Shown here piece after piece: positions 26,793 to 45,182 of a stretch of 64,000 nt of DNA (position 1 is its first letter; each line of letters opens with the position of its first letter). The notes below the pieces were generated by a model. It did no database searches and was not told the DNA's origin. It saw nothing but the letters and a program-made list of their open reading frames with translations. The stretch is from Metallumcola ferriviriculae (lineage in GTDB: Bacteria > Bacillota > JADQBR01): NCBI RefSeq assembly GCF_035573695.1, contig NZ_CP121694.1, positions 1,402,501 through 1,466,500 on the forward strand, read 5' to 3'. The position numbers were made by a program, and so were the translations under genes.

Positions 26793-26817
26793 ATAAATCA
26801 AAGAAAGAGGTAATTAA

Positions 26818-27525
26818 ATGACGCACATTAACAGAAACGAAGGTAAATGCGGCATGTCGCTGCCCCCTATTGATAGAGCTATCCCTGATAACTTGAAAAC
26901 CGCGACCTTTGCTTTGGGCTGATTTTGGGGGCCTGACGCCCGGTTCGGGCTGATAAGCGGCATTTATCGTACTCGTGTTGGCTATGCAGGCGGTACAAAA
27001 GCAAATCCCACCTACCACAGGATGGGTGACCATACAGAAACGCTGGAAGTTGATTTTGACCCCGGACAAGTATCCTATAAGGAATTGCTGGAAGTTTTTT
27101 GGCGCAGCCATAATCCATCTCGGCAGCCATGGTCCAGGCAGTATATGTCCATAGTGTTTTATCACAGCGAGAAGCAGTTACAAGATATAGAAGCTGATAA
27201 AGTATTTTTGGAACAACAAAAGGGTAAAGTTGTAAAAACAAAGATTAGAGCCGCTGGAGAATTTTACCGTGCAGAGGCCTATCATCAAAAGTACTATTTA
27301 CAGCTAATCAGGGATTTAATGAAGGAGTTTAGCAAGTTTTACCCTCGAGTAGATGACTTTATTAATTCCACTGCTGCGGCCCGGATCAATGGTTATGTAA
27401 AAGGTACCGGTTCCTTTGAGAAATTGCGGGGAGAGGTGGATAGTTATGGCCTAACCCCTCAGGGTAAAGAAAAACTTCTAAATATTGTGGCCGGTTATAA
27501 AAACCAAGTTTTGCAGAGATTATAA
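26818..27525 (+). CDS. msrA: Selenoprotein methionine sulfoxide reductase A (Sec at in-frame TGA)
   Basis: A frame of 235 codons runs from ATG 26818 (AAAGAGG upstream) through a TGA at 26920-26922 to the stop at 27525. Before the TGA it reads TATFALG and after it FWGPDARFGLISGIYRTRVG, so TGA occupies exactly the catalytic Cys of the MsrA motif G-C/U-FWG (residue 35). Downstream motifs GYAGGT, YHRMGDHTETLEV and AEAYHQKYY are typical MsrA. A SECIS-like hairpin follows the TGA. MsrA reduces methionine-S-sulfoxide. The only cysteine is C11, so the C-terminal resolving cysteines of many MsrA enzymes are absent. The tail (~residues 170-235) is longer than the core family. A naive call would start at 27022 and lose the active site. 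Confidence 0.92.
26920..26961 (+). promoter_or_regulatory. Bacterial SECIS-like element
   Basis: It starts at the Sec codon TGA (26920-26922). A hairpin GCCC (26938-26941), loop GGTTC (26942-26946), GGGC (26947-26950) places the loop's first G 20 bases after the TGA, within the distance used by bacterial SECIS elements bound by SelB, and a G at the start of the apical loop is expected. An outer GCC/GGC pairing (26931-26933 with 26959-26961) may extend it. Confidence 0.75.
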
Positions 27526-27689: not shown

Positions 27690-27868
27690 CACCTCTATTT
27701 GCTCTTATTGCTAATATTTGCCACAAACGATAACCCGATCACTCTCACGTTAGTAAAAAAAATATGTGATCCTTTTGTCACAGGTTTATTGATGGTGAAT
27801 ATTATTATTCTATGTGGAGGATGTGCATCGTTCGGTTACCACAAAAATCTTATTATAGGGGGATATTT

Positions 27869-28888
27869 ATGCGGCAAGTGAAATGCTTATCGGTTTTATT
27901 CGTACTGCTGTTAGCCATGGTGATGGTAGTTGGCTGCGGCGGTGAGCAGGTGGCGGATGAAAAGAAGAGTGTGGCAGACAAAGTAACCGAGGAGGACCAA
28001 AAACCGGACTTTCCTACTAGACCGGTCACTTATATTATCCCGTTTAATCCGGGTGGACAGTCGGATGTAGAGGCACGGCGACAGCAGCCCTTACTTGAGG
28101 AGTTTTTGAGCACTTCCATTGTAATTCAGTATAAGCCTGGTGGCGGTGGTGCACTGGGTTGGACAGAACTGATGCATGCTAAGGCCGACGGTTATACCAT
28201 CAGCGGTATTAACATTCCGCACATAATTCTCCAGCCCATTGCCAGAGATAATGCCGGTTATACTACTGAGCAGATTAAACCAATCGCAATTTTCCAGGGT
28301 ACGCCTATTGGCTTGGCGGTGCTTAAGGACAGTCCATTTGATACTTTAGAGGACTTGGTTAACTATGCTAAAGAGCATCCCGGTAAGGTGACTGTAGGCG
28401 GCTCCGGTAAATGGAGCGGTCACCATATTGCCCTGCTGCAGCTAGAGGCCTTGGCGGGTATTGAGTTTAATTATGTGCCATCCACCGGAGCGGCTCCTTC
28501 GGTAAGCCAATTTCTGGGCGGGCATACTGATGCTCTCTTTGCCAATTCCAATGACTTAGTGACTCATAAGGATAGGATAAAGGTTCTGGGTCTTGGCTCC
28601 GATGAGCGTTTTGAGGCTTTAGCGGATGTGCCTACTTTTATTGAACTGGGCTATAGTATGACACCCAGTATTGACCGTGGTGCTGCGGTACCGCCGGAAA
28701 CTCCGGATGAAGTTAAGAAAGTTTTGGAGGACGCATTTGTCAGGGTTATGAACAATGAAAGTGTTCGTAAGCAAATGATAGAGCAGGGCTTTGTACCGCT
28801 GCGGCTGGACGCAGTGGCAGCTCAGGAGCATATTAATAAGAAGCAGCTGGAATATACCAAGCTGTTAAAGGAACTTAACCTGCCTTAA
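27869..28888 (+). CDS. tctC: Tripartite tricarboxylate transporter substrate-binding lipoprotein (TctC-like)
   Basis: A 339-residue protein with a lipoprotein signal peptide (MVMVVGC, Cys ~25) and a Bug/TctC fold: RPVTYIIPFNPGGQSDVEAR near the start, ADGYTI, and GGHTDALFANSND. These periplasmic-type binding proteins capture carboxylates for TctAB. ATG 27869 follows TAGGGGG; the frame is open further upstream but without a ribosome site. First gene of a three-gene transporter operon. Confidence 0.92.
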   Translation: MRQVKCLSVLFVLLLAMVMVVGCGGEQVADEKKSVADKVTEEDQKPDFPTRPVTYIIPFNPGGQSDVEARRQQPLLEEFLSTSIVIQYKPGGGGALGWTELMHAKADGYTISGINIPHIILQPIARDNAGYTTEQIKPIAIFQGTPIGLAVLKDSPFDTLEDLVNYAKEHPGKVTVGGSGKWSGHHIALLQLEALAGIEFNYVPSTGAAPSVSQFLGGHTDALFANSNDLVTHKDRIKVLGLGSDERFEALADVPTFIELGYSMTPSIDRGAAVPPETPDEVKKVLEDAFVRVMNNESVRKQMIEQGFVPLRLDAVAAQEHINKKQLEYTKLLKELNLP

Positions 28889-28984
28889 TAATCACATCAA
28901 CTGCAGGAATGAGGCCTTGCACTTCAATGCGCATAGCTTTGAGCTGTTCGTTAATTGACTTTTTGAAAAAGGGAGAGAGCCATT

Positions 28985-30538
28985 GTGGTTGAAAACTTTG
29001 CCGGAGCACTGGGGCACATATTCAATTTATATAATTTCATGTTGATGACCCTGGGGGTAGCGGTGGGCATCGTGGTGGGAGCATTACCGGGCCTCACTGC
29101 TACCATGGCTCTGGCAGTACTTGTTCCCTTTACTTTTATTATGGACCCGGCCACAGGGTTGATGACACTTGGTGGTATTTATGTTGGGGCAATCTATGGC
29201 GGCTGTATTTCTGCCATTCTTATTAACACGCCGGGCACCCCCTCGGCAATTGCTACCACCTTTGACGGCTACCCACTCGCGCAAAAAGGAAAAGGAGAGC
29301 ATGCTTTAGTTGCTGCCGCTTTTAGTTCTGGCGTAGGTGGTGTAATCGGTGCTTTAGTGTTGATATTTCTGGCACCATTATTGGTAGAGGTTGCTCTTAA
29401 ATTTGGCCCGCCCGAGTATTTTTGGCTGGCTATATTTGGTCTAACCATAATTTCAACATTAGCGGCCAAATCCATCTTAAAAGGCCTAATCGGTGGTGCC
29501 TTGGGCCTGCTTGTATCCACCGTTGGTTTAGCGCCAATCGGCGGCGAAATGCGCTATACCTTTGGCTTTTACCAGCTGCAGGGTGGGATTGAATTGATTG
29601 TGGCATTGATTGGCTTTTTCTGCATTCCGGAAATTCTCAATATGATAGCCGATAAAAAAATCGGCAGCGGGCAAGTGGGCAAATTGCAATCCCGCACGGG
29701 GGTTGCCGGCAGTGTAATGATGGCACTGATAAAACAACCGGTGCTCCTTATCCGTTCTGCCATCATCGGTGCTTTTGTAGGGATCGTTCCCGGAGCTGGT
29801 GGCAATGTGGCAGGTCTGGTTTCCTATAATGAGGCAGTAAGATGGTCTAAAGATTCAGAGAAATTCGGTACCGGGATGTTAGAAGGAGTGGCGGCATCAG
29901 AAGCAGCTAATAATTCTGAAGTGGGTGGTTCCTTAGTGCCGCTGCTTACCCTTGGTATCCCGGGGGCGCCACCGGCAGCTGTGATTATGGGAGCATTATT
30001 GCTGCATGGGCTGCGCCCGGGGCCGGACTTGTTTATCCAGCATGGCGCAATTACCTATACATTCCTGCTATCTTTAGTGGTGGCCAATGTGGTGATGTTT
30101 GTGCTGGGATTTTTCGGTGCAAAGCATATCGCCAGGATGATTAATTTGCCTGCCAATTATCTAGCCCCGCTAATTGCCTTTATGACGGTCATTGGGTCTT
30201 ATGCCATTAGAAACAACATGTTAGATGTGGTTATTATGGTGACCATGGGCTTGGCTGGCTACATTCTACGGCGATTAGATTTTCACCCGGGACCCATTGT
30301 GCTGGGTATGATCTTAGGACCCATTGCTGAGAAGGGATTAGTACAGTCCCTAATGCTGGCTCGGTCACAAGAAAGCATTGCAGTGGTATTTTTCACCAGA
30401 CCTATCTCCTTAGTGCTGATAATCTTATGCATTATCTCTGCGGCATGGCCTGTGGTTGCTGGTTTTCGCAAAAAGCACAGTGAGCGCCTACGAGAACAGA
30501 CTGTGGATGGAACCCGGGAGGTGACCGCTGATGGTTAA
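28985..30538 (+). CDS. tctA: Tripartite tricarboxylate transporter large permease (TctA-like)
   Basis: A 517-residue integral membrane protein with about 12 helices and TctA motifs: GVAVGIVVGALPGLTATMAL, INTPGTPSAIATTFDGYPLA and TLGIPGAPPAAVIMGALLLHG. It is the translocating subunit. The GTG start follows GGGAGAG. Its end overlaps the tctB start by 8 bases. A 96-base spacer after tctC may allow different expression of the binding protein. Confidence 0.94.
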   Translation: MVENFAGALGHIFNLYNFMLMTLGVAVGIVVGALPGLTATMALAVLVPFTFIMDPATGLMTLGGIYVGAIYGGCISAILINTPGTPSAIATTFDGYPLAQKGKGEHALVAAAFSSGVGGVIGALVLIFLAPLLVEVALKFGPPEYFWLAIFGLTIISTLAAKSILKGLIGGALGLLVSTVGLAPIGGEMRYTFGFYQLQGGIELIVALIGFFCIPEILNMIADKKIGSGQVGKLQSRTGVAGSVMMALIKQPVLLIRSAIIGAFVGIVPGAGGNVAGLVSYNEAVRWSKDSEKFGTGMLEGVAASEAANNSEVGGSLVPLLTLGIPGAPPAAVIMGALLLHGLRPGPDLFIQHGAITYTFLLSLVVANVVMFVLGFFGAKHIARMINLPANYLAPLIAFMTVIGSYAIRNNMLDVVIMVTMGLAGYILRRLDFHPGPIVLGMILGPIAEKGLVQSLMLARSQESIAVVFFTRPISLVLIILCIISAAWPVVAGFRKKHSERLREQTVDGTREVTADG

Positions 30539-30986
30539 TAGAAACACTATTTTTTCTTTGCTAATAATCATCTTTGCTATTGGCGCTATTTTTGAGGTGC
30601 AGGAGCTGGGAACTGACAGCAGGATATTTCCTCAGGTAATTAGTGTTATTCTGATTATCCTCTCGTTACTTCATTTGGTTAAACATGCCCGAATTAAACC
30701 GATACAAGGTTTCTTTGGCGATGCCGTTATCAGTCGTCTCATAATAATGGCTTTGGGGATGATTTTTTACGTTTTTGGTGTTAAATATCTGGGTTTTACA
30801 GCAGCTAGCGTAATATTCTTAAGTTTTTTCATGTGGTATTTCCATATCCGACGTAAAGTCGGCGGCATGAGGATATTATTGTTTAGCGTGATATTGTCCG
30901 TGGTGATTACCCTTACTTTTTATGGTATTTTCCAGTACTTGTTTTTAATTCCCTTACCCCAAGGAGTTATTTTTGCTATAAACTAA
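30531..30986 (+). CDS. tctB: Tripartite tricarboxylate transporter small permease (TctB-like)
   Basis: A 151-residue protein with four hydrophobic helices, the size and layout of TctB. GGGAGGTGA precedes ATG inside the end of tctA. The order is C-A-B rather than the more common C-B-A. A terminator ends the operon. Confidence 0.85.
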   Translation: MVNRNTIFSLLIIIFAIGAIFEVQELGTDSRIFPQVISVILIILSLLHLVKHARIKPIQGFFGDAVISRLIIMALGMIFYVFGVKYLGFTAASVIFLSFFMWYFHIRRKVGGMRILLFSVILSVVITLTFYGIFQYLFLIPLPQGVIFAIN

Positions 30987-44725: not shown

Positions 44726-44760
44726 AAAAAAAGAAAAAACCTGCTGTAGAAAAGCAGGTA
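44726..44760 (-). terminator. Expression-platform terminator of TPP riboswitch
   Basis: Minus strand ACCTGC, loop, GCAGGT (44739-44759) followed by six T and further T-rich sequence, between the aptamer and thiS. Thiamine pyrophosphate would favour this terminator and stop thi transcription. Confidence 0.85.
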
Positions 44761-44771
44761 TAAAAGATTTC

Positions 44772-44857
44772 AAGCTTCCCTACGGTAGTACTAACTACAT
44801 CAGGTTAAAGGGTTAGGAAATATTTCCTTCTCAGCCAAAGGGCACCCCCAGCGGTAG
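44772..44857 (-). promoter_or_regulatory. TPP riboswitch (THI element)
   Basis: Read on the minus strand it contains GCTGGGGGTGCC, GGCTGAGA, AACCTGATGTAGTTAGTAC and CGTAGGGAAGC in the correct order, the hallmark conserved bases of the thiamine pyrophosphate aptamer. It precedes the thiS-thiG-thiH-thiD2E-thiC operon. Confidence 0.96.
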
Positions 44858-44967
44858 TATTTAATTTTATTAAATTATATCCTGAAAGTAAGGGGCTTGT
44901 AAAGAAAGTTAGTTAACTGGCAGGAAAATTTTAGTTTGTGTTGAATTTTCATTTAAAGTTTAATAAG

Positions 44968-45131
44968 ACTTATTGGTGCCCGTCATGGGAGAATAGGGAA
45001 GTTCGGCCTAATATTTAGGTAAAGGACGCGGTCCCGCCGCTGTAGTAGGGTTACGAAAGCTCCGAAACCACTGGTTTTGCCGGGAAGGGGAGTGATTAGG
45101 CAGCCCTGAGTCAGAAGACCTGCCAATAAGT
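44968..45131 (+). promoter_or_regulatory. Cobalamin riboswitch
   Basis: A P1 helix can form from ACTTATTGG (44968-44976) and CCAATAAGT (45123-45131). Inside are GGGAAGTTCGG, GACGCGGTCCCGCCGCTGT and the B12 box AGCCCTGAGTCAGAAGACCTG. It lies upstream of cblT-cblS and would switch them off when adenosylcobalamin is plentiful. Confidence 0.95.
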
Positions 45132-45182
45132 GAGATTTTAAGCCCCCGCGGAAAGGGGTGATGGAGTTTAGGATGATGGAAA

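Follow-up and report, generated by a model that had tools for sequence, protein, structure and literature searches.

A gene on the forward strand at positions 26818 to 27525 of the window (the whole 64,000-nucleotide stretch analysed) is, with a probability that we put at about 0.97, the gene of a protein-repair enzyme, a peptide-methionine (S)-S-oxide reductase (MsrA) of the Clostridium (Alkaliphilus) oremlandii type that carries selenocysteine as its catalytic residue (Sec35), with a C-terminal helical domain and with proposed SECIS-directed insertion and glutaredoxin-type recycling. Its features, all on the + strand, are as follows:

26806..26810, +, likely ribosome-binding site AGAGG, 7 nt 5' of the ATG (judged from sequence)
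26818..27525, +, coding sequence of the selenoprotein MsrA, 235 residues if Sec is inserted at the TGA
26848..26850, +, Cys11, sole cysteine of the protein, in the N-terminal extension (from translation and conservation)
26899..27303, +, catalytic MsrA domain (PMSR, PF01625), residues 28-162, E 3.2e-39
26920..26922, +, in-frame TGA for the catalytic Sec35 of the motif G-U-F-W-G; 17 further loci share this codon
26938..26950, +, SECIS-like stem-loop, GCCCG-GUU-CGGGC (-7.0 kcal/mol, 5 bp), with its loop 20 nt 3' of the TGA
27364..27474, +, C-terminal helical domain (PF20939, MsrA_helical), residues 183-219, 24.3 bits against a cut-off of 23.7

The reading frame continues through a single TGA

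The frame opens with ATG 26818, runs through 34 codons to the TGA at 26920-26922 and continues for another 200 codons to the TAA at 27523-27525, the TGA being the single stop inside the 235 residues when translation is carried through it. In its N-terminal part the read-through protein has the sequence MTHINRNEGKCGMSLPPIDRAIPDNLKTATFALG-U-FWGPDARFG..., with G-U-FWG placed where a complete MsrA has its catalytic residue. The first-pass annotation of this DNA had described a frame open on either side of the TGA, a read-through product with the MsrA active-site motif restored, and an upstream part with its own ATG and ribosome site; each of these points is borne out here, as is its warning that a gene caller would truncate the protein and lose the active site. 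On the same strand and in the same frame, the standard-code list of open reading frames holds only 27022-27525 (167 aa), and the locus is a clear case of a gene reduced by a standard ORF caller to a piece without its active site. Taken at face value, that entry would allow a reading in which the UGA terminates translation and a separate short protein starts from ATG 27022, or else cysteine might be inserted at the UGA when selenium is low, since cysteine insertion at UGA has precedent in other systems. We consider this pair of explanations extremely improbable, given that the short frame contains no active site and that the codons flanking the TGA are conserved together, as parts of a single domain.

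Scans for promoters and terminators near the MsrA gene returned no more matches than in shuffles, and a scan of the 64,000-nt window for other TGA-bridged frames, judged by eye, gave none that was convincing besides MsrA. Directly downstream, at window positions 27812-30986, lie TctC and TctA of a tripartite tricarboxylate transporter, followed by a small membrane protein that occupies the TctB position. Elsewhere in the window, Rfam models locate a cobalamin riboswitch (44957-45141, +) and a TPP riboswitch (44760-44859, -), close together on opposite strands.

The TGA is shared by relatives from many genera

Searches of genomes of the phylum and of GTDB recovered 17 further homologous loci, spread over many genera, in which the same codon is TGA, making 18 in all. 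A match at E <= 1e-30 was obtained in 19 of 398 phylum genomes, 16 of them (own genome included) with TGA and three with a Cys codon at the catalytic position, and the GTDB scan added two TGA loci; in the more distant MsrAs, which come from 60 sampled genomes, this codon is TGC or TGT. The alignment to Cys and Sec MsrAs that had been proposed as a check accordingly finds TGA or Cys at this codon, and the frequency of 16 in 398 sampled genomes agrees with the earlier description of Sec-MsrA as known but rare, yet the enzyme belongs to an established family with a Pfam domain of its own. When the gene is compared with the homologue L053, codon positions 1, 2 and 3 are conserved in 124, 149 and 81 of 195 cases downstream of the TGA and in 16, 23 and 13 of 33 upstream, where the contrast is weaker. 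Because 17 loci share the TGA and positions 1 and 2 are kept better than position 3 on both of its sides, the frame through the TGA is more than a product of chance.

A TGA lies one base from TGC or TGT and no other stop interrupts the frame, so that one could also think of a Cys MsrA in which the catalytic codon turned into TGA through decay to a pseudogene or through a sequencing error. That 17 other loci likewise have TGA here refutes this for practical purposes; the remaining frame is moreover intact and conserved, the genome contains a complete Sec machinery and the downstream hairpin is better conserved than the protein sequence would demand, and we regard the explanation as exceedingly remote.

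In four of the relatives (L024, L063, L064 and L065) an MsrB-like domain precedes the Sec-MsrA in a fusion whose MsrA catalytic codon is TGA, and in the Cys relatives L060 and L062 the MsrB part lies at the opposite end from that in these four.

The genome encodes a complete selenocysteine machinery

The first-pass annotation had made its proposal depend on the presence of selA, selB, selC and selD. In the genome, which consists of one contig of 3,720,236 bases and is rated 100% complete, all four were found:

C1:335985-337337, selA, 615 bits
C1:337369-339255, selB, 388 bits
C1:344391-344483, tRNA-Sec (selC), 74.6 bits; ARAGORN tRNA-SeC, anticodon tca
G000:C1:414315-415238 (L019), selD, 390 bits, one in-frame TGA, YACAAGUAAK

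The selD gene thus has an in-frame TGA of its own, situated in YACAAGUAAK, where SelD proteins usually carry their Sec, and its product is a probable selenoprotein.

An open frame through TGA would also be expected if this codon were reassigned throughout the genome, for instance to Trp or Gly, in which case the residue would not be Sec. The probability of such a reassignment is virtually nil: the Trp of GUFWG is written TGG, five of the 50 mechanically listed ORFs of at least 150 aa in the window end in TGA, a tRNA-Sec is present, and the position is that of the catalytic Cys in Cys homologues. We infer, rather, that selenocysteine is inserted at this codon in vivo, where SelB on the downstream hairpin would bring Sec-tRNA(Sec) to UGA 26920-26922.

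A short hairpin downstream of the TGA is conserved among the Sec genes

The hairpin with a G-starting loop that had been noticed 20 bases after the TGA is formed by 26938-26942 and 26946-26950 around the loop GUU. Bacterial SECIS elements are described as having a stem of 4-16 bp, a loop of 3-9 nt with a G in its first two positions, a distance of 16-37 nt between UGA and loop, and an energy of at most -7.5 kcal/mol (PMC13188914, a 2026 review). The stem (5 bp), the loop GUU and the spacing of 20 nt conform to these rules, and the energy is borderline, with local values of -7.0 kcal/mol for the bare hairpin and -8.4 kcal/mol with neighbouring bases, which straddle the threshold of PMC13188914. 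In a fold of 26920-26962 or 26930-26960 the hairpin has a probability of 0.1-0.2 and other folds compete, and its probability rises to about 0.7-1.0 if the folded segment begins at 26932 or 26935; folding from 26932 onward would mimic a ribosome that covers the UGA and the adjoining bases.

The support for the hairpin stems from its conservation across the family and not from the statistics of a single gene. Taken alone, this gene gives no support when the 43 nt from the TGA are folded against shuffles (z = +0.92) and a P of about 0.07 in the synonymous-codon test; when the best hairpin of each gene was sought without fixing its place, the per-gene values were only weak, and Rfam at gathering thresholds gave no match at the MsrA gene. 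At one fixed place, 15 of the 18 Sec genes form at least four consecutive pairs, where synonymous codons drawn by local usage would lead one to expect 1.4; the kinship of the sequences makes the pooled P of this comparison overstated. At the same position the three Cys relatives do not keep the hairpin. The loop-closing pair alternates between A-U and G-C among the Sec genes, and in an alignment of ten sequences the number of changes on both sides was reached by one of 500 shuffles, a value inflated by kinship, and it drops in every slid register. The change of the closing pair follows in part the choice between Arg and Gln, while the third base of the matching Phe is free to vary. With this degree of family-wide conservation, the hairpin noticed in the first-pass annotation qualifies as SECIS-like, and a short SECIS hairpin retained within the conserved protein motif A-R/Q-F-G helps to annotate further members.

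Active site and probable recycling partners

The PF01625 match runs across the TGA of the read-through protein, which also scores 123.6 bits with TIGR00401 msrA (cut-off 108.1) and just exceeds the curated cut-off of PF20939. Its best matches in the PDB are MsrA structures, among them 4lwj, 4u66 and 7c13, with E about 1e-54 and an alignment free of gaps over residues 25-227. For these entries the PDB table states the molecule name alone, and we take 4lwj-4lwm, 4u66, 4w8c and 7c13 together to be the C. oremlandii enzyme (CoMsrA) from their catalytic position 16, helical domain and length. The fit of these best matches to published CoMsrA makes the comparison with Alkaliphilus drawn in the first-pass annotation apt. 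CoMsrA, which occurs naturally as a selenoprotein, is 209 residues long, with residue 16 as the catalytic one and residues 145-209 as the helical domain (PMC4479559, PMC4333827), and its active site comprises GCFWG, Tyr47, Glu55, Gln89, Tyr90, His137 and Tyr140 (PMC4333827). At an offset of +19 all of these are kept, as Sec35, Tyr66, Glu74, Gln108, Tyr109, His156 and Tyr159. Judged by its sequence, the protein classes as a probable 1-Cys-type (Sec) MsrA and as a further case of an established enzyme type.

The genome has one MsrB, without an in-frame stop, and the genome row of the MsrA search shows no second MsrA. Two glutaredoxin-family frames contain one TGA each, at the first active-site position in both (UPHC and USDC), and are probably selenoprotein genes:

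G000:C1:3257133-3257312 (L067), -, glutaredoxin-family frame, T-U-P-H-C
G000:C1:1653936-1654112 (L068), +, glutaredoxin-family frame, T-U-S-D-C

In the established chemistry of MsrA, an attack of the catalytic residue on methionine-S-sulfoxide leaves an oxidised intermediate that is resolved in a following step. Here, Sec35 would attack the sulfur of methionine-S-sulfoxide and methionine would leave; since the protein is without a conserved resolving cysteine, the selenenic acid would be resolved by an external thiol or selenol, most likely that of one of the two Sec glutaredoxin-like proteins. The C-terminal helical domain would preserve the form of the active site, a role demonstrated in CoMsrA. 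Cys11 sits in the poorly conserved N-terminal extension and the rest of the protein contains no Cys; that it acts as the resolving residue, by forming a selenenylsulfide with Sec35, is unlikely, and if true it would amount to a way of recycling that has not been described in enzymes of the CoMsrA type.

Comparison with known systems

The first reading of the locus as a Sec-MsrA is confirmed in its observations and supported in its interpretation. With CoMsrA of C. oremlandii OhILAs the protein has in common the catalytic Sec, GUFWG, the active-site residues and the helical domain, for which the match of residues 183-219 to PF20939, a domain named for selenoprotein MsrA, is just over the cut-off. 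It differs from CoMsrA in its longer N-terminal region (Sec at 35 versus 16) and in its one cysteine, Cys11; beyond this N-terminal extension no tested feature departs from the known Sec-MsrA type. CoMsrA itself has no Cys, is reduced by glutaredoxin and not by thioredoxin, and is about 20-fold more active in its Sec form than in its Cys form (PMC4479559). Cys MsrAs (TIGR00401; E. coli 1ff3) share the catalytic domain and a GCFWG/C-type motif, whereas they have Cys in place of Sec, resolving cysteines in the 2- and 3-Cys types, and no helical domain. The Sec-MsrA of Syntrophobacter fumaroxidans is likewise listed as a bacterial selenoprotein MsrA (PMC1794560).

Bacterial Sec-MsrA appears in listings from 2006 onward (PMC1794560) and has been crystallised, and such enzymes are already known from other anaerobic bacteria, so the find is ordinary in kind. 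The locus leaves the knowledge of Sec biology unchanged. C. oremlandii is reported to pair its Sec-MsrA with a Sec-Grx (title of Kim 2011, cited in PMC13188914), and a Sec glutaredoxin in the same genome is common to both organisms; with the present gene, a Sec-MsrA accompanied by probable Sec-glutaredoxins is also seen beyond the single well-studied species.
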